Below are positions 2,204-54,134 of a DNA stretch of 54,134 nucleotides, in pieces. How positions within the stretch are numbered: position 1 is the first letter of the stretch; each line of letters opens with the position of its first letter. This DNA comes from Dokdonia sinensis (GTDB lineage: Bacteria; Bacteroidota; Bacteroidia; Flavobacteriales; Flavobacteriaceae). Made by a program: the position numbers and the translations under genes. Location: the NCBI RefSeq assembly GCF_003688895.1, contig NZ_REFV01000019.1, forward strand, positions 1-54,134, read 5' to 3'. The notes under the pieces are model-generated. The model worked only from the letters and a program-made list of their open reading frames with translations. It had not been told where the DNA came from and made no database searches.

Positions 2204-2217
2204 GCTTTCGCGAAAGC
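2204..2217. repeat. CTTTCGCGAAAG palindrome, copy 1
   Basis: GCTTTCGCGAAAGC lies between the fbaA stop and the accD start on the minus strand. Confidence 0.9.
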
Positions 2218-2274
2218 TTACTTGTCCAGAATTCATTTCGGGAGCAAAAAACCACAATTAAGGCTGTAAAAATA

Positions 2275-3342
2275 CTACAACGTATTCACATTATTCAAAT
2301 CCTCAAATGCTTTTTCTAAACGAGCACGCATCGTCTCCTCACTTTTACGTACCCAAACACGTGGATCATAGTACTTTTTGTTAGGCACATCTGCTCCGTC
2401 AGGGTTTCCTATTTGAGATTTTAGGTAGTCTGCTTTGGCTCCAAAATAATCGCGTATTCCTTCCGTATAAGCATATTGCAAATCGGTATCGATATTCATT
2501 TTGATCACCCCGTAGCTTATTCCCTCGCGTATTTCCTCCACCGTAGAACCGCTTCCTCCGTGAAAAACGAAGTCAATAGTATTATGAGGTACGCCGTACT
2601 TTTCTGAAATGTACTCCTGTGAATTCTTAAGGATTTTTGGCGTAAGTTTTACATTTCCTGGCTTGTACACACCGTGCACATTCCCAAAGGCAGCTGCAAT
2701 CGTAAACTGATCGCTTACCTTCTTAAGCTCTTCATAAGCGTATGCTACTTCTTCTGGTTGCGTGTAGAGTTTAGAATCGTCCACATCTGTATTGTCTACA
2801 CCATCTTCTTCTCCTCCGGTAATACCAAGTTCGATTTCTAAGGTCATATCCATCTTGCTCATACGCTCAAGGTAGGTCTTACAAATCTCAATGTTTTCTT
2901 CTATAGGCTCCTCACTCAAATCAATCATATGGGAGCTAAAAAGTGATTTACCATACGTTTTATGGTGCTTCTCACTAGCGTCTAGTAATCCGTCTATCCA
3001 AGGCAATAATTTTTTTGCACAGTGGTCTGTATGCAGGATTACGGTTGCTCCGTAAGCTTCGGCAAGTTCGTGTACGTGTTTTGCACCAGCTACAGCGCCG
3101 GCAATTGCGGCCTTTTGACCATCGTTAGAAAGTCCTTTACCCGCATTAAACTGAGCACCTCCATTACTAAACTGGATAATCACAGGAGCATTGAGCGCAG
3201 CCGCAGTTTCTAAAACTACATTGATACTGCTGGACCCGATAACATTTACTGCAGGAAGGGCAAAGCCTTTTTCCTTTGCATAGTTAAAAACGTCTTGTAC
3301 TTCGCGACCTGTCGCTACTCCTGGTTTAAGTGTATGGCTCAT
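2275..3342 (-). CDS. fbaA: Class II fructose-bisphosphate aldolase
   Basis: This 355-residue cytoplasmic glycolytic and gluconeogenic enzyme interconverts fructose-1,6-bisphosphate with dihydroxyacetone phosphate and glyceraldehyde-3-phosphate, using zinc. Visible family marks are LHTDHCAKKLLPWIDG (zinc-binding His and catalytic Asp region), ELGITGGEEDGVDN, the ANFGNVHGVYKPGN-type segment and DFVFHGGSGS. The length matches the long E. coli FbaA-type subfamily. It starts at ATG and is followed 101 bp later by accD on the same strand. That gap holds a palindrome copy, so co-transcription is possible but not shown. Confidence 0.96.
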   Translation of the reverse strand: MSHTLKPGVATGREVQDVFNYAKEKGFALPAVNVIGSSSINVVLETAAALNAPVIIQFSNGGAQFNAGKGLSNDGQKAAIAGAVAGAKHVHELAEAYGATVILHTDHCAKKLLPWIDGLLDASEKHHKTYGKSLFSSHMIDLSEEPIEENIEICKTYLERMSKMDMTLEIELGITGGEEDGVDNTDVDDSKLYTQPEEVAYAYEELKKVSDQFTIAAAFGNVHGVYKPGNVKLTPKILKNSQEYISEKYGVPHNTIDFVFHGGSGSTVEEIREGISYGVIKMNIDTDLQYAYTEGIRDYFGAKADYLKSQIGNPDGADVPNKKYYDPRVWVRKSEETMRARLEKAFEDLNNVNTL

Positions 3343-3535
3343 AATGTTTATTTTCTGTTTTTAGAGTCGTAAAAATACGAAAAATAAGCCTTTTTAAAGG
3401 AGATACAAGCAGGTGATGACGATAACGTTTGCGCTCTTTGACTTCGCTTAGGGAGTAAACTTGAGCAGGGTCTTCTTGTTCTATACTACCAGATAGTTTT
3501 GACAGCATTAGACTTATTGATAGAATAAATTTTTG

Positions 3536-3656
3536 GTCATTTCGACGACAGGAGAAATCGCATAATGAAACTCAGGAAAGTAGCTCAGGGAAACTTGCTC
3601 ACTCAAACCTGCTCACTGTGATAGGATTTCTCGGCGCTGCGCTTTGTCAAAATGAC
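3536..3656. repeat. Dispersed repeat with inverted ends, copy A
   Basis: The element begins GTCATTTCGAC and ends GTCAAAATGAC, which are inverted ends with one mismatch. The body contains GGAGAAATC-CATAAT, CTCAGG, AACTTGCT and GATTTCTCGGCGCT. The same elements recur in the same order at 16956-17099. It has no coding capacity, so a MITE-like or REP-like element is the likeliest class. Confidence 0.7.
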
Positions 3657-3665
3657 AAAGTTCTA

Positions 3666-3720
3666 GTCATTTCGACGACAGGAGAAATCGCATAATAAAG
3701 CTCAGGAAAACTTGCTTACT
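3666..3720. repeat. Dispersed repeat, truncated copy B
   Basis: It repeats the first ~55 bp of copy A (GTCATTTCGACGACAGGAGA through AACTTGCTTACT) and then stops. The right inverted end is absent. It lies 10 bp after copy A in the same orientation. Confidence 0.65.
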
Positions 3721-3934
3721 ATTGCAAACATCTCTCCTCACGTCTTCCTCTCGCTCGTTCCTCACTCTTCGGAGACAAATGCAAAGAGAGGCACTGTTGC
3801 GGAATCAATTAAGAGTATAATTGATTTGAAAGCTCCCTTCCTTTTTCACATCCGACGTGCGACCTAAGATGCAAGAGGAATTTGTAAGGGCTAAGACTGG
3901 ATATTGCGTACTGCTCCAGAAATGATAAATTTTC

Positions 3935-3970
3935 AACTTCAACTTCAACTTCGATTTCGATTTCGATTTC
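3935..3970. repeat. Hexanucleotide tandem repeat
   Basis: Three AACTTC units are followed by three GATTTC units, exactly 36 bp. The array overlaps the stop codon of the minus-strand DUF2071 gene (3969-3971) and continues downstream of it. Confidence 0.85.
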
Positions 3971-4682
3971 ATTTCCTGATAACCCTTTTCCCCTCAATAG
4001 TAGTTGGAGCACCCTCAGCAAGAATGACAGAGGTCGGTTGTTGCTCATTAAGAAAAGCAAACTCACTACCGTACACGTGACCAAAATCTACATCGATATT
4101 ATAGTCTTGAACGGCATATTGTTCCCATTTGGGGTGGGTAACTTCGTACTCGTTTGTTTTTGTCTCGTTTACTCTAGCGTATCCCCAATAATGTTCACAT
4201 ATAAACTCGGCTTCACTATTTTTTGGGATAGGTTGGATGTTTTTGCCTGCTTGCACAGAAAATTCTTGCCAGTCGCCAGTTTTCTCCCAGCGATATGTAA
4301 CGCTTCTGTGGTCTGAAGTCTCACGCCACTTATGGCTCATTTTTGCGCAAGTGTAGTTTTCTCCGTAGAGCGTATTTGCCACCCAGACAATGGCATTTTT
4401 AGGTACGGTTTCATTTATAAAGACGACGCCCCGTTTCCAGATACCATTATGTTTATGGCGTACGTAAAAACGTAAGTTTACTTCTTCAAAGTTTACGTGA
4501 TAGGGTATCTTAATTCCAAGCACTCGCGTGTTGAGAAACATAAAGCCTACAAGGCTCACGTAGCACTTGCCTTGCCAGAGATCGAGTTCTGTTCCATACG
4601 GCAGATATTCTCTCAGAATTTCTGGATCTACAGCATAGTTTGCTAGCGCCAGTTTTCTCCATGCCGCAGTAAGGAAACTCAT
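3969..4682 (-). CDS. DUF2071 (YqjF-like) protein
   Basis: The protein is 237 residues and is recognised as DUF2071 from the N-terminal MSFLTAAWRKLALANYAVDPEIL-EYLPYGTELD-WQGKCYVSLVGFMF and the later VNLRFYVRHK--G-WKRGVVFINE. The family is widespread in bacteria, with a fold compared to acetoacetate decarboxylase, but its reaction is not established. No signal peptide is visible, so it is probably cytoplasmic. It follows ilvE by 15 bp on the same strand and is probably co-transcribed. Its stop codon lies in a hexanucleotide repeat, so the C-terminus could change if the repeat changes length. Confidence 0.8.
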   Translation of the reverse strand: MSFLTAAWRKLALANYAVDPEILREYLPYGTELDLWQGKCYVSLVGFMFLNTRVLGIKIPYHVNFEEVNLRFYVRHKHNGIWKRGVVFINETVPKNAIVWVANTLYGENYTCAKMSHKWRETSDHRSVTYRWEKTGDWQEFSVQAGKNIQPIPKNSEAEFICEHYWGYARVNETKTNEYEVTHPKWEQYAVQDYNIDVDFGHVYGSEFAFLNEQQPTSVILAEGAPTTIEGKRVIRK

Positions 4683-4697
4683 ATTTTTTTGTGGAAT

Positions 4698-5744: not shown

Positions 5745-5841
5745 TTTCAGGCTGTTTTGAGCCGCAAATTTAAGAATTAAAGCCCCTTAAACGTCGGTTA
5801 AATTCATAATTTTGCGCTAATCAAGATTTAAAACTTTAGTT

Positions 5842-6384
5842 ATGAGAACTTTATTTGCAATAGCCCTCGCGGGAACGCTTCTTTTAGGATGTAAAGAGGA
5901 GGGTAATAAGGAGTCCGCTTTCGCGAAACCTGTGCTGAGCGGAGCCGAAGTAGCGGAAACCCCATCCACCACCGTGCAAGAAGATTACACAAGTTATGGC
6001 GACAAGATATCTGCCCAGAACGCACTGTCAAACACCGCAATAGCCGAAAAATATAAAACACTGAAAGCTGGCGATACCGCAATGGTAAAGTTTGAAGCAC
6101 CCATAAATAGTGTATGTGCAAGTAAAGGATGCTGGATGCGTCTGGACATAGGACAAGAGGAAGAGGTTTTTGTCAAATTTAAGGACTACGCATTCTTTGT
6201 GCCTTTAGACGCAACGGGAGAAGCCGTAGTAGAGGGTAAGGCATACCTAGAAGAAGTCGCTGTAGACGAGCTCAAACATATGGCCGAAGATGCAGGAAAG
6301 ACAGAAGCCGAAATTGCCGCAATCACCACACCACAGCGCGAACTCCGATTTATGGCAAACGGGGTACTCATCAAGTCCAAATAG
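5842..6384 (+). CDS. DUF4920 lipoprotein
   Basis: This is a 180-residue predicted lipoprotein. A hydrophobic signal ends in the lipobox LLGC, with the lipidated cysteine at 17. The DUF4920 core runs from about residue 50 to the end, with the conserved APINSVCASKGCWMRL segment carrying two cysteines. The function of the family is unknown. The linker after the lipobox (about 25-40) is made from two dispersed repeats: AFAK comes from a CTTTCGCGAAAC variant of the palindrome, and PVLSGAEVAE comes from a CTGAGCGGAGCCGAAG motif that resembles the intergenic sequence at 7179-7195. mnmD starts 3 bp after the stop. Confidence 0.85.
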   Translation: MRTLFAIALAGTLLLGCKEEGNKESAFAKPVLSGAEVAETPSTTVQEDYTSYGDKISAQNALSNTAIAEKYKTLKAGDTAMVKFEAPINSVCASKGCWMRLDIGQEEEVFVKFKDYAFFVPLDATGEAVVEGKAYLEEVAVDELKHMAEDAGKTEAEIAAITTPQRELRFMANGVLIKSK

Positions 6385-6387
6385 GTC

Positions 6388-7065: not shown

Positions 7066-7220
7066 TTTTTTTGTTTTGGTAAATTCGATACAATACGCTG
7101 AGTCCTTCAACTCCGTTCTTGATCATCGGACCACTCAATCACCTTTGATTTTTATTATTTATCATCACTATCCGAACCCTGAGCGTAGCCGAAGGGTGCT
7201 TTCGTTTAAATCTCCACTCC

Positions 7221-7357
7221 GCGTAAGAAATCTTCGCGCCTTTGCGCCTCCGTGAGAAACATTTCTGTCCGAGTAAGAAACCTCCGTGCCTTTGTGTCTC
7301 CGTGAGAACCTCCACGTTCGAGTAGGCCTCCTCCGTGTCTTAGTGTCTCCGTGAGAG
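7221..7357. repeat. Three degenerate ~50-bp tandem units
   Basis: The units start near 7221, 7271 and 7320. Each reads G-GTAAGAAA/GAGTAG, then CTCCGTG or CTTCGCG, then CCTTTG-G-CTCCGTGAGA. The third unit runs into the 3' end of the DUF2809 gene and encodes its last residues. A second short repeat-like string (CCCTGAGCGTAGCCGAAGGG, 7177-7196) lies just upstream. Confidence 0.75.
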
Positions 7358-7753: not shown

Positions 7754-8053
7754 TTATAAAATTTCAAGCACGAGATAAGCGCAAGCATACGCCAGCGGAA
7801 TATTGAGCAACATGATGCCCATAGTCAGAAATACTTCCTTGATTTTACACTTTTTACGCACGGCGTTTATGATAACCAGAAGCAACACAATAAGGTGCAC
7901 GGCAACGGTAGGATAGAGATGGAAAAATCCAATTACCAGCGAATAGTCATTCGGATACACGGCATAAATTAAGGTCTGTAAAAGACCGAATACGGCGCTA
8001 AAAAAGGCAAGTTTTAGCGCAAAACGGTTAATAGGATGTTCCAACGATTTCAT
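7754..8053 (-). CDS. Small membrane protein, unknown
   Basis: This 99-residue protein has three or four predicted membrane segments (about residues 12-30, 38-65 and 76-97) and a short basic loop AVRKKCKIK. I do not recognise a family. Its start lies 26 bp inside the 3' end of the DUF4173 gene on the same strand, so translation is probably coupled. The DUF2809 gene follows. The context suggests an accessory component of the membrane operon, without further support. Confidence 0.65.
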   Translation of the reverse strand: MKSLEHPINRFALKLAFFSAVFGLLQTLIYAVYPNDYSLVIGFFHLYPTVAVHLIVLLLVIINAVRKKCKIKEVFLTMGIMLLNIPLAYACAYLVLEIL

Positions 8054-9446
8054 AGGTTTTGTTTTGAGAGTTTAATATTCCTTGTAATGTTTTGGATTGC
8101 CAAGTTTCTTCATCTAGCTTGAACTTCCAGCTATGGTATTCTCTTTCTATGCGGTCTCTATCTAAAGATTTTGATGGGTACGCTTTCGCGAAAGCGTATA
8201 ACAAATCTCCATTATCGGGTCCAAGAGAAATGAGATATGGAATGTCTGGGTTTTTAACTGTTCCGAGATTAAAATGTGTGATGCTCCTTGTCCAACTGAA
8301 ACTTGCCAAAAGGATAAGCACCACAAACGCCACCCGTGCATTTGTCTTAAACATAAATAGCAGGTTATGTTTTCGGGCAATTTTGAGGTAGGTCGTGACC
8401 ATTCCCACAACGCAAAATAGAAGATACACAAACACACCGATGCGCTTATAGGTAAGACCAAAACCTGTGCTGTACAGGAAGTTTTTATATGTGGTGAGTA
8501 AGACAATCAGAATATTGAGCCCTAGCCAAACGTAAGTGAGTGTCCTTAGCGTAGCACTCTTTTTATAGAAATTGAGATTTCCTCGGAAGAGGATTAAAAT
8601 AATCGTGATCGCAATGATAATAGAGGTCACCAGCGCATTCACACCCTCGTGCACCGTAGCCGAAAGAACCACAGCATCCTCCAGCGGATTCTGAGCCAGA
8701 TACATCACATCTGCCAGGATGAAGAGAAGGATTAAGCCGTTGAGCGCTCCTAGAAGTATAGTTCCTAGTAGGGCTTCTTTTTGAAGTCTGGATTTTTGGC
8801 TTTCGGCCAGGAGTTCTTCTTTGAGGTGAAGCGATGCGTTGCGGTCTATGGTGGTGATAATATCAAGTTCGGCGGGAGCGGTGAGGTTGCGTAGGAGGAC
8901 ATAACCCATTACAGCGAGGATAAACCAAGGGAAATTAAAAAATGACAAGTCTATCGCATCGAGCCATTTACCGAAAATGGGATTTGCTATTCCGTAGAGA
9001 CTTGCAAATAGAACGCAAATAATGACGACGACAACTGTGGTGAGGAGAATGAAACCAATGTCTTTTTTCTGTTTGGGCGGTGCGATGTTTTTGTCGCGAT
9101 GTATGTGTGCGTGTAGTACGCCTATGGTACTCTGATACATTCCATTAAACCATTGCACGTATACCGAGTTTCCTCGTCCAGAAATACTTCCCGCAAAGAC
9201 CAAAAAGGCGATAAAATAATTGAATTGCGCCAGTCCACTATTTACCGTAAAGACAAAAATACCGCTTAGCACATAGAGACTTGCGCTAAAAATAAAGTCT
9301 CGCCTAGAGCGAATAGAAGGTTTGGAAACGACAACGAGAGCAACGGCAATAATTGCAAAAAGTAACATATTGAGGCCAAAGTCTTGGTCATAAAACAACG
9401 TACTGAATAGTAGCGCTAAAGGCAGATGGATGAGATTCTTTTTCAT
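8028..9446 (-). CDS. DUF4173/DUF4153-type multispan membrane protein
   Basis: The protein is 472 residues with about ten to twelve membrane segments. Recognisable stretches include NPIFGKWLDAIDLSFFNFPWF, TVHEGVNALVTSIIIAI and YKRIGVFVYLLFC-VGMVTTYLKI. The family has no proven biochemical function. A soluble C-terminal tail (about 405-472) carries LYAFAKAYP, whose AFAKA is encoded by a palindrome copy at 8181-8196. The gene overlaps the upstream Coq4-like gene by 4 bp and the downstream small membrane gene by 26 bp, which indicates one operon. Confidence 0.82.
   Translation of the reverse strand: MKKNLIHLPLALLFSTLFYDQDFGLNMLLFAIIAVALVVVSKPSIRSRRDFIFSASLYVLSGIFVFTVNSGLAQFNYFIAFLVFAGSISGRGNSVYVQWFNGMYQSTIGVLHAHIHRDKNIAPPKQKKDIGFILLTTVVVVIICVLFASLYGIANPIFGKWLDAIDLSFFNFPWFILAVMGYVLLRNLTAPAELDIITTIDRNASLHLKEELLAESQKSRLQKEALLGTILLGALNGLILLFILADVMYLAQNPLEDAVVLSATVHEGVNALVTSIIIAITIILILFRGNLNFYKKSATLRTLTYVWLGLNILIVLLTTYKNFLYSTGFGLTYKRIGVFVYLLFCVVGMVTTYLKIARKHNLLFMFKTNARVAFVVLILLASFSWTRSITHFNLGTVKNPDIPYLISLGPDNGDLLYAFAKAYPSKSLDRDRIEREYHSWKFKLDEETWQSKTLQGILNSQNKTYEIVGTSY
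8181..8196. repeat. CTTTCGCGAAAG palindrome, copy 2
   Basis: CGCTTTCGCGAAAGCG lies inside the DUF4173 gene, read as AFAKA in the soluble tail. Confidence 0.9.
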
Positions 9447-10356: not shown

Positions 10357-10372
10357 CGCTTTCGCGAAAGCG
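10357..10372. repeat. CTTTCGCGAAAG palindrome, copy 3
   Basis: CGCTTTCGCGAAAGCG lies 3 bp past the stop codon of the 222-residue membrane protein gene (minus strand) and upstream of the regulator gene. Confidence 0.9.
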
Positions 10373-11093: not shown

Positions 11094-11223
11094 CAGAGAA
11101 TGCAAAAGTTTTTGATTTTTTTATGTTACCTCGATGCTGTGCGGTACCGCTTTAGCGAGAGCGGTGTTAAAAATTTATTATGCGTGAATAGTATTTTCGG
11201 TTACATTTGTGAAAACGGTTTAT

Positions 11224-13387: not shown

Positions 13388-15028
13388 CTAACGACTTTTC
13401 TTAACCCTCTTCAAAACCAAAAAATTCTGAGCATTCGGTGTAAATCCAGAAATATTCTTTCGCGTAAAGCGCACAACTTCGTCGTAATAAAGTGGAACAA
13501 TGGGAGCCTTGCTCATTGCTAGGGAATCCATTTTTGCATAAAGCTTTTTACGTTCCTCCACATCATTTATGGATAGGCTTGCTTTGTACATTTGGTCGAA
13601 TTCAGCATCGCTAAAATGCGTATAATTCGGCCCATTGGGCGTAAAGTTTTTACTGTAAAATAGGCTTAAATAGTTTTCGGCGTCGGGATAATCTGCAATC
13701 CAACTGGCGCGGAAGGCATCTAACTCGCCACTACTTTTCATTTGACGCAGGGTAGAGGGTGGCATCACTTCAATTTTGATATCCAGCCCCGCTTTTTGGA
13801 GCTCCCGCTGTATGTACTCACAGATGTCCAGATACTGACTGTTAGTTCCTATAGTTAATTGTGGTTCGGTATCTCCTGTTTCTTGAATGTATTGTTGTAT
13901 TAGCTTTCGCGAAAGCGTAACATCGTACCCATACCCCTCAATTTTTTCATATCCCGGTAATCCTTTAGGTATAAACCCATGCACCGCTGGCTCGCCGATT
14001 CCATTGCGCAGATAGGTTATCATCTTTTGACGGTCAAAACCGTAGTTTACAGCTTTTCGCAGGAGTTCAGATTGCACTTCGGGCGTGTCACTGCCCAAGA
14101 AAAAACCGATGTACTCCGTGTTGAGGTGCGGGCTCTTCACCATATTTACATCGTCTTGGTACTTTTCTCGTAAGCTACCAGAAGAGGTGAGAAGTTCGTC
14201 CTTATACGACGGATCAAGGCTATTCAAAAAATCAATATTTCCCTGTGCAAATTGTAGAAATTCGCTCTGTTTATCGGGTAAAAAAGTGATCGCCACCGCC
14301 TCAAGATAGGGTAGAGCATTGCCTTCTTCATCTTTCTCATAATACAGTTCATTCTTGCGAAAAACCAATTTCACCCCTTCTTCCCAGCGCTTAAATTTAA
14401 ATGGGCCCGTCCCTATGGGATGTGAGCGGAATTCGCTTCCGTAATGCTCCACAATCTCCCGTGGAACAACCGAACAATAGCGCATACTGAGCAAGCCGAG
14501 ATAGGCAGGAAAAGGTTTTGTGAGCTGTATTGTAAAGGTGCTGTCATTTGTCGCTTGGTAAGATTCCACATTCCCCAAGACCCAGCCACCGGGCGAAGCC
14601 ACGCGGTCGTCTGTTAATCGGTCAAAAGAATAGACGAAATCCTCAGCAACCACCTTGCGTGTGCTGTCTGGCGTTTTAAATTGTTCGTGTTTGTGGTAAA
14701 AAACATCATCTCGAAGCGTAAAAGTATATGTCATCGCATCGTCAGAGATTTCCCAAGACTTTGCAATATCAGGAACTACGTTGAGGTCGTTATCCAACTG
14801 TACCAGTCCATTAAAAAGCTGATTTACGGGCCAGATAATCGAAGGATTACGAGCAAAAGCAGGATCAAGCGTTGAGATCTGGTATTGCTCATTGTAGCGA
14901 AAAACCTCGTGGTCGCGGGAGGAGGTGTTAGAGTTTGAGCAGGAGGTGAGGAGGGAAAGAGTGAATATGAGCCAGATAAAAGTAAAGTATCTTCTGGATG
15001 CTGGATGCTGGATGCTGGATGATTTCAA
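13388..15028 (-). CDS. Oligopeptide/dipeptide ABC transporter substrate-binding lipoprotein
   Basis: This 546-residue protein is of the SBP_bac_5 family, which binds peptides or similar solutes outside the cytoplasm for ABC import. The lipobox LLTSC has its cysteine at 30, after a hydrophobic stretch at 15-29. Family marks include ISTLDPAFARNPSI, PDIAKSWEISDDAMTYTFTLRDDVFYH, AEDFVYSFDRL and SHPIGTGPFKF. No permease genes are nearby. The only reasonable start is TTG at 15028; an in-frame TAA lies about ten codons further upstream. Codons 3-12 are encoded by a heptanucleotide array, so slippage would shift the frame. A palindrome copy at 13904-13915 is read as LSRKL. Confidence 0.88.
   Translation of the reverse strand: MKSSSIQHPASRRYFTFIWLIFTLSLLTSCSNSNTSSRDHEVFRYNEQYQISTLDPAFARNPSIIWPVNQLFNGLVQLDNDLNVVPDIAKSWEISDDAMTYTFTLRDDVFYHKHEQFKTPDSTRKVVAEDFVYSFDRLTDDRVASPGGWVLGNVESYQATNDSTFTIQLTKPFPAYLGLLSMRYCSVVPREIVEHYGSEFRSHPIGTGPFKFKRWEEGVKLVFRKNELYYEKDEEGNALPYLEAVAITFLPDKQSEFLQFAQGNIDFLNSLDPSYKDELLTSSGSLREKYQDDVNMVKSPHLNTEYIGFFLGSDTPEVQSELLRKAVNYGFDRQKMITYLRNGIGEPAVHGFIPKGLPGYEKIEGYGYDVTLSRKLIQQYIQETGDTEPQLTIGTNSQYLDICEYIQRELQKAGLDIKIEVMPPSTLRQMKSSGELDAFRASWIADYPDAENYLSLFYSKNFTPNGPNYTHFSDAEFDQMYKASLSINDVEERKKLYAKMDSLAMSKAPIVPLYYDEVVRFTRKNISGFTPNAQNFLVLKRVKKSR
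13903..13916. repeat. CTTTCGCGAAAG palindrome, copy 4
   Basis: GCTTTCGCGAAAGC lies inside the peptide-binding lipoprotein gene, read in the LSRKL frame rather than AFAKA. Confidence 0.9.
14994..15021. repeat. Heptanucleotide array CTGGATG x4 in coding sequence
   Basis: Four perfect CTGGATG units on the plus strand (CATCCAG on the coding strand) form codons 3-12 of the peptide-binding lipoprotein. The unit length is not a multiple of three, and the array has no stop codon in any forward frame of the gene. It lies 12 bp from the stop of the four-helix-bundle gene. Confidence 0.92.
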
Positions 15029-16926: not shown

Positions 16927-16938
16927 CTTTCGCGAAAG
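16927..16938. repeat. CTTTCGCGAAAG palindrome, copy 5
   Basis: Exact core, 73 bp downstream of the mtaB stop. Confidence 0.9.
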
Positions 16939-16955: not shown

Positions 16956-17099
16956 GTCATTTCGACCCTTCGACAAGCTCAGGACAGGCTTTAGGAGAAA
17001 TCCCATAATCTAGCTCAGGAATTTAGCTCAGGCAAACTTGCTTACTCAAACGCATTCATTGTGATGAGATTTCTCGGCGCTACGCTTTGTCGAAATGAC
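16956..17099. repeat. Dispersed repeat with inverted ends, copy C
   Basis: It runs from GTCATTTCGAC to GTCGAAATGAC, perfect inverted 11-bp ends. Inside are AGGAGAAATC-CATAAT, CTCAGG, AACTTGCTTACTCAAAC, GTGAT, then GATTTCTCGGCGCTACGCTTTG, as in copy A. A CCCTTCGACAAGCTCAGGA string inserted near the left end is absent from copy A and accounts for most of the length difference. Confidence 0.75.
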
Positions 17100-20895: not shown

Positions 20896-20913
20896 CCGCT
20901 TTCGCGAAAGCGG
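20896..20913. repeat. CTTTCGCGAAAG palindrome, copy 6
   Basis: CCGCTTTCGCGAAAGCGG, an 18-bp perfect palindrome, lies 25 bp after the stop of the thioredoxin-fold gene. Confidence 0.9.
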
Positions 20914-23914: not shown

Positions 23915-23958
23915 GAGGGTGATACGTACGCTTTCGCGAAAGCGTACGTATCACCCTC
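23915..23958. repeat. Perfect 44-bp palindrome containing copy 7
   Basis: The sequence from GAGGGTGATACG to CGTATCACCCTC is a perfect inverted repeat of 44 bp centred between 23936 and 23937. The core CTTTCGCGAAAG is at 23931-23942. It begins directly after the DUF3667 stop codon. No T-run follows, so it is not a standard terminator, although the RNA would form a very stable hairpin. Confidence 0.95.
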
Positions 23959-28285: not shown

Positions 28286-29161
28286 ATGCATAAATTCAAG
28301 TCCCACTTCGTCTATGATACACAGAAACGGAGTGGGATTTTGATTTTGCTAACGATCATTCTCATTGCATTAGGATTTGCTTTCTGGTATGAACCCAGTT
28401 ATGATATTGCGTTAAGCCCAGAAGAGGCGCAAGAGATTCAGGTCTTTCAACAACGCATAGATTCTTTAAAGGGCGTTGAGATTGAGAATAGGAAACCTAA
28501 AGTTTACCCTTTCAACCCAAACTTTATAACAGACTATAAAGGGTACACACTAGGAATGTCTACACTAGAAATTGATAGGTTGCACCGCTTTCGCGAAAGC
28601 GATAAATGGATAAACTCCATCGCAGATTTTAAAAGAGTAACGCAGGTTTCTGATAGTCTTCTCAATAAGATCTCACCTTACTTTAAATTCCCAGATTGGG
28701 TAACAAACCCTAAAACCACAACCTCATACAGCAGTAAGCGCACTTGGAAAACGACCGAAGAAAAAGGAGATATCAATACCGTAACGCTCGCACAACTTGA
28801 GGCTATAGAAGGCGTAGATGCGCAAAGTGCTCATAAAATTTTGAAATACAGAAATAAGATAGGAGGTTTTATTATCTACAAGCAGGTATACGATGTTTAC
28901 GATGTACCGTATGATACTAAACGAGCGATACTAGATGAGTATACCGTACAGCAAGTGCCAGTAGTAAGCAAGCTTAATGTAAATACTGCATCTGCATCAG
29001 ACCTATCTACGGTCCCCATGCTTTCCTTTGAACTCGCAATGGAAATTGTTAATTATAGAACACTTCGCGAGGGAATTACTTCCATTGAAGAATTAGCAAA
29101 AATCGACGGTATGACCTCATATAAATTTGAGAGAATAAAGTTATATTTGAATATTGATTAA
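28286..29161 (+). CDS. Helix-hairpin-helix (ComEA-like) membrane-anchored protein
   Basis: The protein is 291 residues. One N-terminal membrane segment (about 17-37) is followed by an outside domain with two or three ComEA-type helix-hairpin-helix units (NTVTLAQLEAIEGVDAQSAHKILKYRNKIGGF and LNVNTASASDLSTVPMLSFELAMEIVNYRTLREGI). Such domains bind DNA. ComEA acts in DNA uptake, but this protein is longer and I see no competence genes beside it. A palindrome copy at 28588-28599 encodes RFRES in frame. It starts 12 bp after the symporter. Confidence 0.85.
   Translation: MHKFKSHFVYDTQKRSGILILLTIILIALGFAFWYEPSYDIALSPEEAQEIQVFQQRIDSLKGVEIENRKPKVYPFNPNFITDYKGYTLGMSTLEIDRLHRFRESDKWINSIADFKRVTQVSDSLLNKISPYFKFPDWVTNPKTTTSYSSKRTWKTTEEKGDINTVTLAQLEAIEGVDAQSAHKILKYRNKIGGFIIYKQVYDVYDVPYDTKRAILDEYTVQQVPVVSKLNVNTASASDLSTVPMLSFELAMEIVNYRTLREGITSIEELAKIDGMTSYKFERIKLYLNID
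28586..28601. repeat. CTTTCGCGAAAG palindrome, copy 8
   Basis: The core at 28588-28599 is inside the helix-hairpin-helix gene, read as RFRES. Confidence 0.9.
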
Positions 29162-29217: not shown

Positions 29218-30390
29218 ATGACAGATTTATATTATACAGAGGAGCACCATCTTTTTCGCGAAAGCTTAAGAGATTTCCTCCAGAAAGAAGTAGTGCCTCA
29301 TATTGATAAATGGGAAAAAACAGGTCACATAGAGCGTTTTATTTGGGAGAAAGTAGGTGAGATGGGATTCTTCGGAATTAATTATCCTGAGGAATATGGC
29401 GGTATGAACCTCGACCTTTTCTATACTGTAATTTTTCTAGAAGAGTTGCAGCGTATCAATTCAGGAGGATTTGCAGCCGCTATGTGGGCGCACGCTTATC
29501 TTGCGATGACCCACCTTAATGCTGAGGGTGATGACCGCATCAAGCAAAAATACCTAGCACCTAGTATTGAAGGAAAGATGATAGGATGCTTGTGTATTAC
29601 AGAACCTTTTGGTGGGAGTGATGTGGCAGGAATGCGCACAACTGCTGTAAAAGAAGGTGATCACTACGTACTTAATGGCTCTAAAACATTTATCACAAAC
29701 GGAGTGTATTCAGATTACTTAATTGTTGCGGCTAAGACAAGTCCAGAGCTGGGCGGAAAGGGGATGAGCATTTTTGTGATGGATCGCGATACGTCGGGAA
29801 TTTCTGCAACGAAACTGGATAAACTGGGATGGCGAGCATCAGATACGGGAGAAATTGCTTTTGATAATGTAAAAGTGCCTGTCGAGAACCTAATGGGCGA
29901 GGAGAACAAAGGGTTTGCTTATATAATGCAGCACTTTGCGCTGGAGCGTCTCATTATGGGAATAAATGCACATGCAAGAGCAGAGTATGCCATAGAATAT
30001 GCCCTAGACTATATGAAAGACCGTACGGCTTTTGGTAAGACCATTAATACATTTCAAGCGCTCAGACACTTAATGGCAGAGCGCACCTCCGAGGTTGAGA
30101 TGGCAAAAGCATTTAATTATGCCACGGCTTATAGACTAAATAGAGGCGAGTATGTAGTAAAGGAGGCTACAATGTCTAAGCTTATCTCTACTAAAATTGC
30201 AGATCAGGTCATAAACGATTGTTTGCAGATGCTAGGAGGTTATGGTTATATGGAAGAGTACCCCCTTGCGCGTATGATGCGTGACAGTAGGTTAGGTCCT
30301 ATAGGTGGCGGAACCTCGGAAATTTTGAGGGAAATTATTGCAAAAATGGTCATAGACGGAAAGACCTATGATCCAGCAACAAAAAAGTAG
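29218..30390 (+). CDS. Acyl-CoA dehydrogenase
   Basis: This 390-residue flavoenzyme oxidises acyl-CoA to 2-enoyl-CoA and passes electrons to ETF. Motifs include CITEPFGGSDVAGMRT, GSKTFITNG, YMKDRTAFGKTI, QMLGGYGYMEEYPLARMMRDSR and IGGGTSEI. The medium-chain catalytic Glu position is Gly here (GGGT). E256 in ARAEYAIEYALDYMKDR aligns with the helix-G Glu of the long-chain type, so that is the likely base. A near-copy of the palindrome (29253-29264, one mismatch) encodes FRESL near residue 13. Confidence 0.92.
   Translation: MTDLYYTEEHHLFRESLRDFLQKEVVPHIDKWEKTGHIERFIWEKVGEMGFFGINYPEEYGGMNLDLFYTVIFLEELQRINSGGFAAAMWAHAYLAMTHLNAEGDDRIKQKYLAPSIEGKMIGCLCITEPFGGSDVAGMRTTAVKEGDHYVLNGSKTFITNGVYSDYLIVAAKTSPELGGKGMSIFVMDRDTSGISATKLDKLGWRASDTGEIAFDNVKVPVENLMGEENKGFAYIMQHFALERLIMGINAHARAEYAIEYALDYMKDRTAFGKTINTFQALRHLMAERTSEVEMAKAFNYATAYRLNRGEYVVKEATMSKLISTKIADQVINDCLQMLGGYGYMEEYPLARMMRDSRLGPIGGGTSEILREIIAKMVIDGKTYDPATKK
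29253..29264. repeat. Near-copy of the palindrome
   Basis: TTTTCGCGAAAG differs from the core by one base. It lies in the first codons of the acyl-CoA dehydrogenase gene. Confidence 0.6.
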
Positions 30391-30894: not shown

Positions 30895-31785
30895 ATGTCA
30901 TTACTCTCATTTCTAGATTATCTCAAACTTGAGAAAAACTATAGCGATCACACGGTACTCGCTTATGAGAAGGATATCGAGGCTTTTTTCGCTTTCGCGA
31001 AAGCGGAATATGAACAAGAATCACTTATTGATATTAATTACGGGCAAATACGCAGCTGGATTGTGAGTTTGGTGGATAATGGAATATCCAATAGAACCGT
31101 AAATAGAAAAATTTCGTCTTTAAAATCTTATTACAAATTTCTGCTGAAATTAGAGGCAATAGAAGTTTCACCTCTAGCTAAGCATCGAGCGCTAAAAATC
31201 CCAAAGAAAGTACAAGTGCCATTTTCTCAAAATGAAGTGGAAAACGTGATTAACGAACTTAGGAAGGCCACAGACTTTGAATCCTTGAGAGATCTTGCGC
31301 TAGTTGAACTTCTATATGCTACAGGAATGCGTAGGGCAGAACTTATCAATCTTACAATGGATCAAGTAGATATGAAACAAAATTTGATTCGGGTTGTGGG
31401 AAAACGTAATAAAGAAAGGATGCTTCCTTTATTGCCCAGTCTTAAAAAGACAATTGAGGCTTATTTATCTGTTAGAGAGGATGTTGTTATTGATTCTTCC
31501 CAGTCAAATGTGTTACTTACTAGCAAAGGAGTTAAAATGTATGATACTCTTGTCTATCGCATAGTAAATCGTTATTTTAGTAGAACGTCTAACAAATTAA
31601 AAAGGAGTCCTCATATTTTGAGGCATTCATTTGCGACACATCTTCTTAATGAAGGAGCAGATTTAAATATCGTAAAGGAATTATTAGGGCACGCGAGTCT
31701 TGCTTCTACGCAGGTATATACTCATAATAGTATAGCTGCGCTCCGAAGTGTATATGAAGATGCGCATCCTCGTAACAAAAAATAA
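30895..31785 (+). CDS. xerD: Tyrosine recombinase XerD-like (chromosome dimer resolution)
   Basis: This 296-residue recombinase has the full catalytic set: R146 (ATGMRRAEL), K170 (GKRNKER), H240 and R243 (HILRHSFATHLL), H266 (LGHASL) and Y275 (VYTH). The N-terminal core-binding domain covers about 1-95. The length and conserved gene order (rpsU, xer, hpf, tRNAs, tuf) point to the housekeeping Xer enzyme, not an integrase of a mobile element. XerC versus XerD cannot be decided from sequence alone. A palindrome copy encodes AFAKA at 33-37 in a helix of the N-terminal domain. Confidence 0.9.
   Translation: MSLLSFLDYLKLEKNYSDHTVLAYEKDIEAFFAFAKAEYEQESLIDINYGQIRSWIVSLVDNGISNRTVNRKISSLKSYYKFLLKLEAIEVSPLAKHRALKIPKKVQVPFSQNEVENVINELRKATDFESLRDLALVELLYATGMRRAELINLTMDQVDMKQNLIRVVGKRNKERMLPLLPSLKKTIEAYLSVREDVVIDSSQSNVLLTSKGVKMYDTLVYRIVNRYFSRTSNKLKRSPHILRHSFATHLLNEGADLNIVKELLGHASLASTQVYTHNSIAALRSVYEDAHPRNKK
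30992..31003. repeat. CTTTCGCGAAAG palindrome, copy 9
   Basis: Exact core inside xerD, read as AFAKA (residues 33-37). Confidence 0.9.
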
Positions 31786-32827: not shown

Positions 32828-32839
32828 CTTTCGCGAAAG
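32828..32839. repeat. CTTTCGCGAAAG palindrome, copy 10
   Basis: Exact core, 13 bp before tRNA-Thr(GGT), inside the tRNA cluster. Confidence 0.9.
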
Positions 32840-34272: not shown

Positions 34273-34411
34273 GACTTTTGTAATGAGGGAATGTGGTTGT
34301 GCTTTTGCGAAAGTGAAGTAGTTAGCTGTTTTTCTCTTTAAAATTTTGGTAGTAAACTAGATTTACTTTTTATAGGTAATCTTAGGTTTGGATATTAAAA
34401 TTTTAAAATAT

Positions 34412-41609: not shown

Positions 41610-41621
41610 CTTTCGCGAAAG
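41610..41621. repeat. CTTTCGCGAAAG palindrome, copy 11
   Basis: Exact core in the 100-bp spacer between rpoB and rpoC, within a co-transcribed essential operon. Confidence 0.9.
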
Positions 41622-46078: not shown

Positions 46079-46098
46079 TACGCTTTCGCGAAAGCGTA
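46079..46098. repeat. CTTTCGCGAAAG palindrome, copy 12
   Basis: TACGCTTTCGCGAAAGCGTA is a perfect 20-bp palindrome and the best example of the extended consensus. It lies 30 bp past the rpoC terminator. Confidence 0.92.
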
Positions 46099-46310
46099 TG
46101 AATCTGTATCTTCATAGCATTATATAATACTTTGTCAAGGCAGGTGACCCATAAAGTAAATAGGAATTGTGATAGACGGGAGGTCTCTAGAGTTATTGGA
46201 ATTCACCTTGATAAGCAATTGAATATCATTGCAAACGGAAGAAATTTAAAATTAAATAACAAAAGCGTTAGACGGGATGAGATTTCCGCCTTCGCGGAAA
46301 TTAAATTAAG

Positions 46311-46715: not shown

Positions 46716-47285
46716 ATGATTTTAAAACGGCTCAAGACAGAAACAGACAAACTTCATCGCGAGGTCGAAGAAGGAAATCTTGCAAAATATATAATGGATG
46801 GCTCTATCACGCAGCCTGTATATGAAAGATTGTTGCGTCAGAATTTTGAAGTGTATAAAGCTGTTGAGGACTGTATAAATAATAGATACGATGTACTTCC
46901 AGAAGAGCTTAAACCCTTTGCTGGTTATACAAAAACAAATGCCCTTGCAGCAGATATTAGGGGTTTTTCTAATCTTCCTCTTCCGCAGCCTGATAGACTC
47001 ATTACACCTCGTAAGGTTTTGTCTTTAGTGGGTAAAATGTATGTTATCGAAGGATCGATGGTGGGTGTTACAATGATTGCAAAAAAGATACAGTCTTGTG
47101 GCGCGTTGAGTCATATAGAAAAACACCACTTCTATAACGCTGATTCAGAAAACAGCATGTTACGCTGGAAAAAATTTAAAGATGCCGTTGCGTCACTCAA
47201 GTTATCGGACGATGATATGGATACAGCTGTTCAAAGTGCTAAGGATACGTTTATGTTGTTTAAGAAAGCTTTCGCGAAAGCGTAA
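46716..47285 (+). CDS. Heme-oxygenase-like protein (BphO type)
   Basis: This 189-residue helical protein carries the heme-ligand region TETDKLHREVE (H14 the likely proximal ligand) and the distal-helix pattern MYVIEGSMVGVTMIAKKI. Bacterial heme oxygenases open heme to biliverdin with release of iron and CO, and the BphO branch feeds bacteriophytochromes. No phytochrome gene is nearby. The last residues, AFAKA, and the stop codon come from palindrome copy 13 with its GCGTAA flank, so the C-terminus appears to have been supplied by the element. Confidence 0.8.
   Translation: MILKRLKTETDKLHREVEEGNLAKYIMDGSITQPVYERLLRQNFEVYKAVEDCINNRYDVLPEELKPFAGYTKTNALAADIRGFSNLPLPQPDRLITPRKVLSLVGKMYVIEGSMVGVTMIAKKIQSCGALSHIEKHHFYNADSENSMLRWKKFKDAVASLKLSDDDMDTAVQSAKDTFMLFKKAFAKA
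47269..47280. repeat. CTTTCGCGAAAG palindrome, copy 13
   Basis: Exact core at the very end of the heme-oxygenase-like gene. The following GCGTAA supplies the last alanine and the stop. Confidence 0.92.
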
Positions 47286-49054: not shown

Positions 49055-49066
49055 CTTTCGCGAAAG
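49055..49066. repeat. CTTTCGCGAAAG palindrome, copy 14
   Basis: Exact core in the divergent intergenic region, about 105 bp upstream of prfC. Confidence 0.9.
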
Positions 49067-49960: not shown

Positions 49961-52900
49961 ATGAAAAGATTATTACAATATAAAGGTATGGTTAAGGTGA
50001 AGAGTGTTTGTTTATTTATCATCGCTTCATTTTTCTTCACAATATCTGCTCAGGGACAATCAAATGATCCTAATGTCACCATTGAGAAAATAGCCGTGCC
50101 TAATCCCGACACCTGTAATCAATTTGATGTAACGATTAGCATAACGGGAAATCCACCGCCACAACCTGTTGAAGCGGTTCTGGTAATTGATAGGTCTGGT
50201 AGTATGGGTAATAATGGCGGACCACCAGATTCTAATGGAAATTTACCTATTGATTATGCGCAAGATGCTGCTCTAAATTTTGTAGAAGAGCTTTTTTTAG
50301 CTTCAAATAATCCTACAGGACTGAATAAAGTAGGATTAGTGACTTATGCTGATACGGCGACTCAAGACACGGGACTATTAGAAGATACTCCAGCAAATAG
50401 AATATTGCTTACAAATGCAATAAACAATATTATAACCACAGGATTCACAAACGTCCACGATGCAATCCTCGAAGCTGACGATTTATTGAGTACGCAAGGT
50501 ACGTTTGACTGTGGCACTTCTAGATCTATAGTGCTTTTAACAGACGGGGTTGCTAACAGGAGAAATAATACAGATGGTACCTTAGACGGTTGTCAAGAAA
50601 CTGTGGATTTAAATCAGCCTAATACTGCTGGAAATGATACAGATTGTATCACCTTTGCAATAGATGCGGGTGTTGCTGCTCAAACCACAGTTGTAGGAAC
50701 AGAACTTTATGAACAGTCCATCTACTCTATAGGTCTTTTATCATTTTATGAGAATGATGCGGTAAGACTTAATAATGCGACGGTAACTTTGGAGGGGATA
50801 CAAAATACTGGTGGTGCCACCGTAACCTTTGAGGCAGCAGATTTAACAGGAATATATTCTGATATTCTAGGGCAATTAGTTTTTGCCGCACGAGCCTTGC
50901 CAGGTCAGTCGCTAGTATCAAATCAGGTATCTGCTGGTTTCGACCTCGTTCCAGGTAGTATTGTTTCTAGTGAGACTCCAGATGCAAGCGATGTCACTAT
51001 AAACGGTGATGTACTAGAGTGGTTCGTTGAGCAAGTTGGTAATGAGACTATAACACTACAATATTCTATCGTTGCCGAGAATGATGCTATATGCGGTGTT
51101 TCTGATTCTGGAAGTTCGGTAATTAATTATATAAATGCCAGTTGCCAGCAGTCATCTGCATTTTTTCCAAGCCCACAGTTCTGTGTACCTTGTCCAGAAC
51201 TTAATGCGGCTATTGAAAGAGACGAATGTAATGATGCTATCGTTTATGACGGAACTTTTAGTTTTCGGGACGATGACGCTAATATGCCTTTGTGCGGTAC
51301 TTTAGAAGATAACTTTCTTTGGACTTTTTTCCTTAATGGAAATGTAATAGGAACTTCGACCCAACTGGATGGTACTTTTAATTACACAGGAGCAGCTCCC
51401 TTTGAAGGAACATTGTCTGCGACGTTGTCCTATGATGGTACTTTTGGAGGTGGTTGTGCACTCAGTACAGATGACGCAACTACAACTACGATAATTCCGC
51501 AAGAGGTGGCGGTAATTGCTACCCCTACAGATGTTTCTTGTTTTGGGGGTAGTGACGGCTCTATTTCTTTAAGTGTTTCGGGTGGTACTCCGCCATATAC
51601 ATACCAATGGAGTAATGGTGCAACTACACAGAACCTTAGCGGATTAACAGCTGGGGTATATGAGGTTGTAGTGACTGATAGTGCACAATGTTCCGTACCT
51701 GTAAGCCCAGCTCAGACTACGGTAGGCCAGCCAGAGCCTATTGCTGTAAACATAACTAGAGTAAATGCTACAAGTGCGCAAGGTTGTAATGATGGAGAAG
51801 CTACTGCTATAGCGACCGGTGGAACGGCGCCTTATAGTTATCAATGGAGTGCGAGTACAGGAAATCAAACAGGGTCTACTGCCACCGCTCTTCCCGCTGG
51901 AACACATTCAGTTACAATTACTGATCAAAATGGATGTACGCTTACGCAAAGTGTTGTAGTAGACTGTACAAATACCTGTGACGCTGTTGTGGCGATTATA
52001 GGTGACGTTACAAACGTTTCTTGCGCTGGAGAAAATACTGGAGCGGCAACTGTGGGAGCCAGTTCTAATGCAAATCTAGGGGCGACTTTTACTTTTACTT
52101 GGAGTAATGGTCAGATAGACTCTGGAGTAACAACAAGTACGATTTCTAATCTTTTACAAGGAGTTTATACGGTAAGTGTTACCATAGACGGGACAGTATG
52201 TGATCCTGTTGAGCAAAGTGTTTCTATATCTGAACCAGACAGTCCTGTAAGTGTTACGGCTTCTGCCACAGATGAAACTGGACCTGGACTTTCTAACGGT
52301 ACCGCAACGGCAAACCCGTCAGGAGGAACACCTCCTTATACTTACTTATGGAATACAGGTGCCACCACACAATCTATTTCTGGTTTAGCTCCGGGAACTT
52401 ATAATGTTACAGTAACAGATGACAATGGTTGCACAGTACAAGTGCCAGTAACGGTTAATCCAGGGAGCTGTCTTAATCTTAGCATCTCAACAAATGCAAC
52501 ACCTGTAAGTTGTAATGGGTTTTCTAATGGAAGTGCTTCCTCAGTTACTACCGGAGGAACAGGACCATTTACTTATTCTTGGAGTAATGGTGCTACTACA
52601 CAGAACCTTTCTAATCTGCCAGCAGGAACTTATATTGTAACTGTCACCGATTCATTTTCGGCCTGTACCGCTCAAAGTTCTGTTACCGTCAATGAGCCAA
52701 GTGTCTTAAGTTCCGGAATTGCAGTTGCTAATGTGCTTTGTCGTAATGATAATACCGGTTCATTAAACCTAACTGTTAATGGAGGCACAACACCTTATAC
52801 ATTTGCTTGGAGTACCGGAGCCACTTCAGAGGATCTTGTAGGTCTAGCTGCAGGTGGTTATACTGTGACTATTACAGACGCAAATGGTTGTACAACTTCA

Positions 52901-54134
52901 GCTTCTGCCACTATTACCCAACCAGCTACTGTTGTGGGAGGTAATGTAGCAGCGACAGATGAGAATGGAGTCACCGCAAACGATGGAAGTGCTACAGCGC
53001 AAGGAGTAGGCGGGACACCTCCTTATACATATTCTTGGAGCAACGGAGAATCTACACAGACAATTACGGATCTTGATAGTGGAGATTATACCGTGACAAT
53101 AACTGATGGTAACGGTTGTACTTATATAGAGACGGTAACGGTAGGCTCGGCTAACCAAACGCCCACGGCAAACGACGACGAAGAAACTACCCTAGAAGAC
53201 ACACCAGTAAATATAGATGTTACAGATAACGATGATTTCGGTGCTGACGGACCTTCTATAGGAACAATTACGATCATCACGCAACCTTTAAATGGTACTG
53301 CAACGGTAAATGATAATAATACGCCCAACGATCCTTCAGATGACACCATAGACTATACGCCTGGGCCTAATTACAATGGCACAGATACATTAGAATATCA
53401 AATTGAAGATAGTAATGGGGATACCGCTTTCGCGAAAGCGGACATCACAATAACACCTGTTCAAGATGCCTTTGACGATGCGGCAACAACAGATGAAGAT
53501 GAGCCGGTTCAAATTGATATCCTTGATAATGATTTATTTTCAGGCAATTATCCAGACGATTTTGAGGTCTCGGCAGTTAGAACACCTGCAAATGGAACAG
53601 TAACAATTTTGCCAAATGGTGAGGTAGTCTATACGCCAAACCCTAACTATAACGGAACAGACACTTTTGATTACACGGTTACGGTAAATCATCCTGACGG
53701 GACAACTTCTACCGAAATAGCAACTGTGGTGGTTACTATAATCCCTAAAGCAGATGTTACAAATGACTCTGAAACTACTTTAGAAGACGTTCCAGTATTA
53801 GTTGATATTCTTCCCAATGATGACTTCTCTGGAGTTTATGGGCTTGATTATGAAACAACTTCAGTAACCAATCCTGCAAATGGAACGGTAACAATCAATG
53901 GCGATGGAAGTGTGACATATACTCCAGACCTCGACTATAGTGGAACAGATACCTTTGACTATACTGTAACCGTTTTAAATGCTGATGGTACAACTGAAAC
54001 AGAGACTGCTACGGTAGTTGTCACCATCCGTCCAGTAGATGCTAATGATGATAGCGCTACGACCGATGAGGACGTGGCTGTTGATATTGATGTATTTGAC
54101 AACGATGTGTTGGGCGATCCTACGATTGACACAG
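49961..54134 (+). CDS. Giant VWA/SprB-repeat adhesin, 3' end outside window
   Basis: The frame is open for 1391 codons to the window edge. A signal peptide (to about 30) is followed by a von Willebrand A domain (about 70-280) with MIDAS residues D77, S79, S81 and a second D195. A Cys-containing beta region (to about 515) is followed by seven SprB-type repeats (about 518-1064; pattern SGGTPPYTYQWSNGATTQNLSGL-AG-Y-VTVTD). Then come three cadherin-like repeats and the start of a fourth (from about 1066; pattern DEDTPV-IDV-DND---YTPNPNYNGTDTFDYTV). It is probably a surface adhesin, perhaps of the gliding/type IX secretion kind. A palindrome copy encodes AFAKA at 1156-1160. Confidence 0.9.
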   Translation, partial: MKRLLQYKGMVKVKSVCLFIIASFFFTISAQGQSNDPNVTIEKIAVPNPDTCNQFDVTISITGNPPPQPVEAVLVIDRSGSMGNNGGPPDSNGNLPIDYAQDAALNFVEELFLASNNPTGLNKVGLVTYADTATQDTGLLEDTPANRILLTNAINNIITTGFTNVHDAILEADDLLSTQGTFDCGTSRSIVLLTDGVANRRNNTDGTLDGCQETVDLNQPNTAGNDTDCITFAIDAGVAAQTTVVGTELYEQSIYSIGLLSFYENDAVRLNNATVTLEGIQNTGGATVTFEAADLTGIYSDILGQLVFAARALPGQSLVSNQVSAGFDLVPGSIVSSETPDASDVTINGDVLEWFVEQVGNETITLQYSIVAENDAICGVSDSGSSVINYINASCQQSSAFFPSPQFCVPCPELNAAIERDECNDAIVYDGTFSFRDDDANMPLCGTLEDNFLWTFFLNGNVIGTSTQLDGTFNYTGAAPFEGTLSATLSYDGTFGGGCALSTDDATTTTIIPQEVAVIATPTDVSCFGGSDGSISLSVSGGTPPYTYQWSNGATTQNLSGLTAGVYEVVVTDSAQCSVPVSPAQTTVGQPEPIAVNITRVNATSAQGCNDGEATAIATGGTAPYSYQWSASTGNQTGSTATALPAGTHSVTITDQNGCTLTQSVVVDCTNTCDAVVAIIGDVTNVSCAGENTGAATVGASSNANLGATFTFTWSNGQIDSGVTTSTISNLLQGVYTVSVTIDGTVCDPVEQSVSISEPDSPVSVTASATDETGPGLSNGTATANPSGGTPPYTYLWNTGATTQSISGLAPGTYNVTVTDDNGCTVQVPVTVNPGSCLNLSISTNATPVSCNGFSNGSASSVTTGGTGPFTYSWSNGATTQNLSNLPAGTYIVTVTDSFSACTAQSSVTVNEPSVLSSGIAVANVLCRNDNTGSLNLTVNGGTTPYTFAWSTGATSEDLVGLAAGGYTVTITDANGCTTSASATITQPATVVGGNVAATDENGVTANDGSATAQGVGGTPPYTYSWSNGESTQTITDLDSGDYTVTITDGNGCTYIETVTVGSANQTPTANDDEETTLEDTPVNIDVTDNDDFGADGPSIGTITIITQPLNGTATVNDNNTPNDPSDDTIDYTPGPNYNGTDTLEYQIEDSNGDTAFAKADITITPVQDAFDDAATTDEDEPVQIDILDNDLFSGNYPDDFEVSAVRTPANGTVTILPNGEVVYTPNPNYNGTDTFDYTVTVNHPDGTTSTEIATVVVTIIPKADVTNDSETTLEDVPVLVDILPNDDFSGVYGLDYETTSVTNPANGTVTINGDGSVTYTPDLDYSGTDTFDYTVTVLNADGTTETETATVVVTIRPVDANDDSATTDEDVAVDIDVFDNDVLGDPTIDT
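53425..53440. repeat. CTTTCGCGAAAG palindrome, copy 15
   Basis: The core at 53427-53438 lies in the first cadherin-like repeat of the adhesin, read as AFAKA in the strand before the next repeat. Confidence 0.9.

Follow-up and report, generated by a model that had tools for sequence, protein, structure and literature searches.

The window analysed here, the whole 54,134-nucleotide contig NZ_REFV01000019.1 of Dokdonia sinensis (contig 11 of the 3.65-Mb assembly GCF_003688895.1, genome G000), carries a 12-bp palindrome, CTTTCGCGAAAG, that recurs every few kilobases as the core of a longer, symmetric element. The word is present in hundreds of near-perfect, evenly spaced copies in Dokdonia and in a few other flavobacteria. 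From this evolutionary signature, the best reading would be that it is an uptake-type DNA self-recognition sequence, a reading that we hold tentatively and at somewhat less than an even chance. If true, a palindromic word with the signature of an uptake sequence in Bacteroidota, and in a host with no pilus-type ATPase above threshold, would point to a separately built self-DNA recognition system or, alternatively, to a hitherto undescribed chromosome-structuring protein. Either reading is directly testable in Dokdonia donghaensis DSW-1.

An iterated palindrome with C-poor arms

The original prediction, made from the letters of the window, described a highly iterated palindrome with 15 exact copies, and each of the 15 starts that it gave matches CTTTCGCGAAAG exactly. 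The word did not appear in any of 100 dinucleotide shuffles of the window, where it is the commonest 12-bp palindrome, the runner-up having 2 copies. Genome-wide the word occurs 917 times, whereas a reversed control word occurs twice. The count is thus far from expectation and the copies are not limited to the window, congeners being rich in them as well, so that the description was borne out. Titles and opening lines of abstracts in the open-access literature, searched with the 12-mer, a 10-mer and Dokdonia or Nonlabens together with palindrome, gave no account of such a word, which does not prove that none exists.

The full element measures about 52 bp and consists of a 12- to 16-bp palindrome with arms in which C is almost lacking 5′ of the core on each strand. 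An example is 8163..8214, where 20 bp flank the core at 8183 to either side and the 32 scored 5′-flank bases include no C. Base frequencies at 111 sites in 454 kb of the window genome gave, outward from the core, G (0.97), C (0.87), A or C, and T (0.77). Since the positions from −4 to −1 read T, A or C, C and G, the form T[AC]CG-core-CG[GT]A fits better than TACG alone; the extended consensus first proposed was therefore close, but only 3 of the 15 window copies are the full 20-mer.

In two Dokdonia genomes, arm composition was measured at 102 clean intergenic sites. On each strand the frequency of C 5′ of the core was 0.01–0.10 over positions 4 to 20, T was raised, G was raised at many arm positions, and composition levelled off beyond about position 30. 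Nonlabens arms (38 sites) are likewise poor in C over about 20 bases, and those of genome G230 (26 sites, 46% G+C) clearly so only to about position 8; flank preferences are unlike between Dokdonia, Nonlabens and G230, in the manner of dialects. In G230 we also observed, within 40 kb, 6 and 10 repeats of ACAACGGTCTC / AACGGTCTC (L151-L152). Extended hairpin arms were considered and rejected: past about the fifth base, arm-to-arm pairing was not above the level expected from composition, so the arms look like a composition preference. Single-strand DNA folding gave −6.3 kcal/mol. The same 102 copies show a 3-bp rhythm, with a keto share of 0.92, 0.79, 0.83 and 0.74 at arm positions 5, 8, 11 and 14 and of 0.48–0.75 in between. 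A first impression was of a RecA triplet, and codon position was considered next, since the commonest reading frame puts third codon positions there; intergenic copies, however, show the rhythm too, so that codon position does not account for it.

Such arms bring to mind a Chi-like recombination signal, palindromic and working in both directions, which would stop or redirect end resection arriving from either side and whose keto-rich 5′ arms would favour RecA loading. RecA prefers GT-rich DNA, and GT-rich islands surround Chi in E. coli; the T/G-rich, nearly C-free stretch of about 20 nt that lies 5′ of the core on both strands of intergenic copies, and the density of about one site per 4 kb, recall the Chi sites of RecBCD and AddAB. 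A one-strand reader, however, would need only a half-site, and half-sites outside perfect copies reach only about 1.1–1.9 times the Markov expectation, decayed copies included. Furthermore, the word is symmetric over 16 bp, whereas known Chi words are, to our knowledge, short and not palindromic. We consider a Chi-kind signal quite improbable.

Spacing, placement and conservation of the sites

Even spacing, skew with respect to the replication origin (ori) and terminus (ter), and conservation of sites between strains had been proposed as checks. In 400 contiguous kb of the window genome the coefficient of variation of the gaps was 0.66, compared to 0.99 expected (simulation interval 0.82–1.20), and 2 gaps were shorter than 1 kb where 20 were expected. 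Genome G016, taken as the complete genome of D. donghaensis DSW-1, which was sequenced by PacBio (PMC4974333), gave 15 such gaps of 186 against 51 expected (226 sites in 40 spread segments). Gaps are thus far more regular than chance. No clear gradient from ori to ter was seen in the 40 segments of G016, several of those between 1.64 and 2.25 Mb being sparse.

Copies had been predicted both between and inside genes, and this is the case. Using a simple open reading frame (ORF) caller, we classified 336 of 337 sites (one lay too close to a segment end): 179 were wholly in ORFs, 102 were clean intergenic and 55 lay near or across edges. The sample being 90% coding, coding DNA is under-used by the motif. 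Reading frames of the sites within ORFs were split 97:48:34, and the favoured frame encodes Ala-Phe-Ala-Lys-Ala (AFAKA) in the three window copies that use it.

One-mismatch copies are scarce. With expectations computed from base composition, the ratio of observed to expected copies fell, between zero and one mismatch, from 5391 to 50 in the window genome, from 6799 to 36 in G016, from 6847 to 18 in Nonlabens (just 38 perfect and 4 one-mismatch copies) and from 2847 to 27 in G230, that is, by 105- to 385-fold in the four genome samples. Perfect copies are also strictly kept. In 230 kb aligned between the genomes G006 and G009, at 93.3% identity, all 57 aligned G006 sites were unchanged, compared to 50% of 3000 control 12-mers; 3 of the 60 G006 sites lay in DNA unaligned with G009, which makes up about 10% of the stretch. 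The reverse direction was examined over the 56-kb rpoB stretch alone, where G009 has 15 sites, 13 of them kept and 2 changed. Congener pairs at about 77–83% identity retained 62–100% of aligned sites against 0–49% of controls (11–47 controls each); the window's own genome, which aligns over about 21 kb and yields 2 to 4 sites per comparison, was left out of these figures. In one set of measurements the least conserved bases lie 5–12 from the core (0.69–0.70, compared to 0.94 in the core and 0.78 at 41–60).

Among 68 changed rows from ordered congener pairs, which are not independent of each other and again leave out the window genome, 44 held substitutions only, with the surroundings still aligned, and 24 held gaps; site turnover is largely by substitution. 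The high copy number and the rows with gaps would suit a repeat or miniature mobile element copied round the genome. Yet the substitution-only rows speak against such copying, the spacing is too even for random insertion, and there is no conserved sequence beyond the word and its composition-biased arms, nor a discrete inserted unit as in miniature inverted-repeat transposable elements or repetitive extragenic palindromes. An origin of this kind is hardly credible.

The main rival of the uptake reading is that the sites serve a lineage-specific protein that organises or maintains the chromosome, such as a nucleoid-domain, segregation or replication factor, one every few kilobases, each kept by purifying selection. 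A palindrome with symmetric arms would suit a dimer on duplex DNA, and the even spacing, the absence of losses among the 57 aligned sites and the copies in some phage contigs described below are all consistent with such a role. The word resembles parS and Noc-binding sites in being a 16-bp palindrome with TTTC...GAAA halves, and differs from them in a centre two bp shorter, in its hundreds of copies and in the lack of any extra strong ParB-type protein in 34 genomes. Sites of nucleoid proteins are usually degenerate, whereas one-mismatch copies are scarce here; copy number is not clearly tied to genome size (Spearman 0.37, P 0.24, 12 genomes of at least 99% completeness); and neither a clear ori-ter trend nor a reader, among the families described below, came to light. 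We regard this explanation as rather unlikely, though it is the most serious of the alternatives.

Distribution, candidate readers and the uptake reading

All 17 Dokdonia congeners searched carry 383–937 copies each, with 921 in G016. Of 397 genomes sampled across 237 genera of the family, only 6 genomes in 3 genera (g1, g11 and g210), namely Dokdonia, Nonlabens and one other, have more than 100 copies, the next-highest genome having 21. A Nonlabens genome with 467 copies groups with g11 in an rpoB tree, and g11 is therefore taken as Nonlabens. In this tree, built by a short search without bootstrap, Dokdonia with g210 and Nonlabens fall in separate clades (starred), and the motif-rich label needs two changes. 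Genus g164, from the same clade as Dokdonia and g210, has only 13 and 8 copies; when an alternative iterated word was looked for there, no 11-mer exceeded 4 copies in 40 kb. Four further genomes (G116, G326, G091 and G082) have 11–21 copies, above the reversed control and far below the three rich genera, and these may be relics or imports. Outside the family, 23 genomes of the same order in a sample of relatives have 0 or 1 copies. The C-poor arms, this distribution over separate clades and the phage copies are additions to what had been predicted.

The prediction had likened the word to the highly iterated palindrome HIP1 and had suggested a role in uptake, chromosome organisation or methylation and repair. 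The iterated palindrome stands, and uptake fits best by evolutionary signature; the methylation form has been weakened. A word of the HIP1 type would arise from methylation-dependent mismatch repair or mutation bias, and palindromic extensions of an iterated palindrome are indeed known from HIP1 and the alternate HIPs of cyanobacteria (PMC4390886). However, a C5 DNA methyltransferase (PF00145) was found in only 7 of 16 motif-rich genomes, being absent in 9, and in 8 of 13 motif-poor ones. The word of 12–16 bp with skewed 20-bp arms also contrasts with the 8 bp of HIP1, and its flanks gain G besides T, so that deamination of C alone is insufficient. We judge this origin very unlikely.

No reader protein was found among the families tested (PF00145, PF17762, PF00437 and a DUF5689 subtype). 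The C5 methyltransferase was rejected on the counts given above. A ParB paralogue was rejected since each of 34 genomes has a single strong match to the ParB-type HTH PF17762; weak second matches in G011, G034, G061 and G184 do not follow the motif. The type II/IV secretion and pilus ATPase PF00437 (T2SSE type) was rejected as well: strong matches above threshold are patchily distributed, occurring in 7 of 31 Flavobacteriaceae genomes (G004, G011, G013, G017, G281, G034 and G368), of which 5 are among the 14 motif-rich and 2 among the 17 motif-poor ones. The C-terminal subtype of DUF5689 appeared promising on five sequences and was dropped when an alignment of 30 placed both subtypes inside Dokdonia. 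At least three C-terminal types of the uptake-linked DUF5689 protein (L298-L327) can apparently be told apart, and they switch within and between genera.

Competence exists in the order, and homologues of its machinery are present in the genomes searched, motif-rich or not: ComEC in 14 of 14 and a DUF5689 homologue in 30 of 30. A transposon screen in Riemerella anatipestifer identified ComEC, DprA, ComF and RecA as essential for transformation, together with four proteins without similarity to known machinery: a DUF5689 protein, an outer-membrane protein and two others (PMC8459023). A study on Riemerella columbina describes uptake that was competed by its own DNA and not by foreign DNA at equal dose; F. 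johnsoniae was not competent under the conditions used there (PMC7965970).

Uptake words have been described for Neisseriaceae and Pasteurellaceae; they are rarer in coding and new DNA and accumulate by molecular drive (PMC7811141). The uptake sequences of Haemophilus and Neisseria drop 92-fold and 82-fold at one mismatch and are evenly spaced (PMC1939737), and the DNA uptake sequence (DUS) of Neisseria is a highly conserved word in slightly more divergent surroundings (PMC2397512). Like DUS and the uptake signal sequence (USS), the Dokdonia word has many perfect copies, a steep fall at one mismatch, over-even spacing, under-used coding DNA and clade-specific flanks; it also shows stringent conservation in slightly permissive surroundings, with identity between G006 and G009 low far from the sites as well. 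If uptake is involved, the 16-bp palindrome CGCTTTCGCGAAAGCG with its C-poor arms would be recognised by a protein that is probably a symmetric dimer and acts as a receptor or in DNA handling, and DNA bearing the word would be preferentially taken up or recombined. This bias, through molecular drive, selection or both, could fill the genome with evenly spaced near-perfect copies, spacers and one cheap reading frame being favoured. We infer each of three steps, namely that a protein would read the word, that it would act in DNA uptake and that its route would be the flavobacterial one known from Riemerella.

Several observations weigh against this reading. The word is a perfect 12-bp palindrome, unlike the known DNA uptake-enhancing sequences (DUES), which are not palindromes (PMC1939737). 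The window genome has no PF00437 ATPase, the sole pilus-type component searched, above the cut-off. Because a non-palindromic word and pilus machinery were both looked for and neither was found, we have left the word outside DUS and USS; arms nearly free of C 5′ of the core on each strand and a host in Bacteroidota also set it apart. Motif-poor genera have ComEC and DUF5689 just as motif-rich ones do, so that these genes do not explain the distribution of the motif, which the DUF5689 C-terminal subtype does not follow either. Raised identity near sites was looked for between the two species G006 and G009 and was not seen: identity was 0.918 in the bin 1–20 and 0.906 in the bin 21–50, both under the average. 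As it is also low beyond 3 and 5 kb (0.920 and 0.905), the neighbourhood effect around the sites is not clean. Recent exchange between Nonlabens and Dokdonia was not seen in the samples compared. Finally, a search for iterated 11-mers (four repeats, 400-bp spacing) was positive for two 20-kb pieces of the window and found none in 74 rpoB-region loci, each 10 kb or longer, that came from other genera, almost all of them in Bacteroidota; this suggests that words of this sort are not in general use in the family. The power of the test is limited: the Nonlabens rpoB locus, which at 8.7 kb was too short for it, has 0 copies although the genome has 467. Conservation and spacing fit both molecular drive and direct selection for a chromosomal role, and for this reason we hold uptake no more firmly than stated above.

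A combined form is also conceivable, in which the element would be a two-way self-DNA signal of a new class: a symmetric dimer would dock on or cut the palindrome, the C-free, keto-rich arms on both strands would be RecA-loading tracts, and a single word would both label self DNA and set off its recombination from either side. Non-sister flavobacterial lineages would have acquired or kept this system independently. We think this improbable.

Copies in phages, in putatively transferred DNA and in the window

The 16-mer is present in 41 stretches of 30 viral contigs; stretches within one contig may overlap and a total site count is therefore not given. In 22 of these contigs the flanks are as C-poor as chromosomal ones (the median is 2 of 32 for either), and 8 contigs with one copy each in a C-rich context look like chance. 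Seven proteins were scanned from two motif-bearing contigs and 6 match PHROGs, terminase, portal, head protease, tape measure and integrase included. Neither of two cultured phages of Nonlabens, in which no integrase is annotated and whose host genome is unchecked, has a copy even when one mismatch is allowed; a related Winogradskyella phage has none either. IMGVR_UViG_3300040781_000495 (L231, L248, L251) is a phage contig with several copies, mostly in a C-poor context, that we read as Mu-like; among named terminases, the one from Winogradskyella phage Peternella_1 is closest to its own.

In several motif-poor genera the copies are clustered, with two copies 933 bp apart in at least four genomes. 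The pair in G118 lies within a cluster encoding an AcrB-type pump, an outer-membrane efflux protein, a multicopper oxidase and a heavy-metal P-type ATPase. This heavy-metal/copper cluster (L145 2987-13735 and L146, from G118 and G127) carries sites of the Dokdonia type. Over 14 kb the G118 and G127 stretches share 77% identity; the pair is retained in each of them, and a third G118 site is unshared. We infer that these copies are transfers from motif-rich donors, and the word may thus mark transferred DNA.

Nine of the 15 window copies lie outside open frames and six inside, the latter in five listed ORFs and in the frame at 53427. Cores at 10359..10370, 16927..16938 and 20899..20910 are intergenic, as are those at 2205..2216, with the 20-mer TCCGCTTTCGCGAAAGCTTA, and at 46083..46094, a full 20-mer. 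The intergenic core at 23931..23942 is extended by 16 more paired bases per side into a 44-bp perfect inverted repeat (23915-23958), whose arms are far longer than those of all remaining copies in the 454 kb examined. Two placements that had been singled out proved right: the core at 32828..32839 lies in the tRNA cluster, between tRNA-Gly and tRNA-Thr, and that at 41610..41621 in the rpoB-rpoC spacer, where it is kept in 6 of 6 aligned Dokdonia relatives. No open frame of more than 120 aa surrounds 49055..49066.

Three cores use the favoured frame 1 (AFAKA): 8183..8194 in ORF 8028-9446(-), a full 20-mer TACG...CGTA; 30992..31003 in ORF 30895-31785(+), kept by G004 and changed in five other relatives (four by substitution, one by a gap); and 47269..47280 at the 3′ end of ORF 46716-47285(+). 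The core at 13904..13915 in ORF 13388-15028(-) is read in frame 0 (LSRKL), and that at 28588..28599 in ORF 28286-29161(+), in frame 2, is kept in 6 of 6 aligned Dokdonia relatives. The last, at 53427..53438, is within a 1391-aa open frame running off the contig end.

Six degenerate copies had been listed. Compared to the core, those near 5917, 29253 and 34301 have one mismatch (5918..5929, CTTTCGCGAAAC; 29253..29264, TTTTCGCGAAAG; 34302..34313, CTTTTGCGAAAG) and those near 11148 and 20246 have two, whereas the one near 46287 is weak, with 3 mismatches in 12. The place aligned with 29253..29264 is perfect in G009, G016 and G003, and that aligned with 34302..34313 carries a perfect copy in G009 and G006.

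Other repeats were also observed in the window. A 107-nt repeat occurs at 3550-3656 and 16993-17099 (84% alike), with shorter related copies, also at 3527-3709, and a unit of about 49 bp is present at 7217-7356 in three head-to-tail copies, each ending in CTCCGTGAGA.

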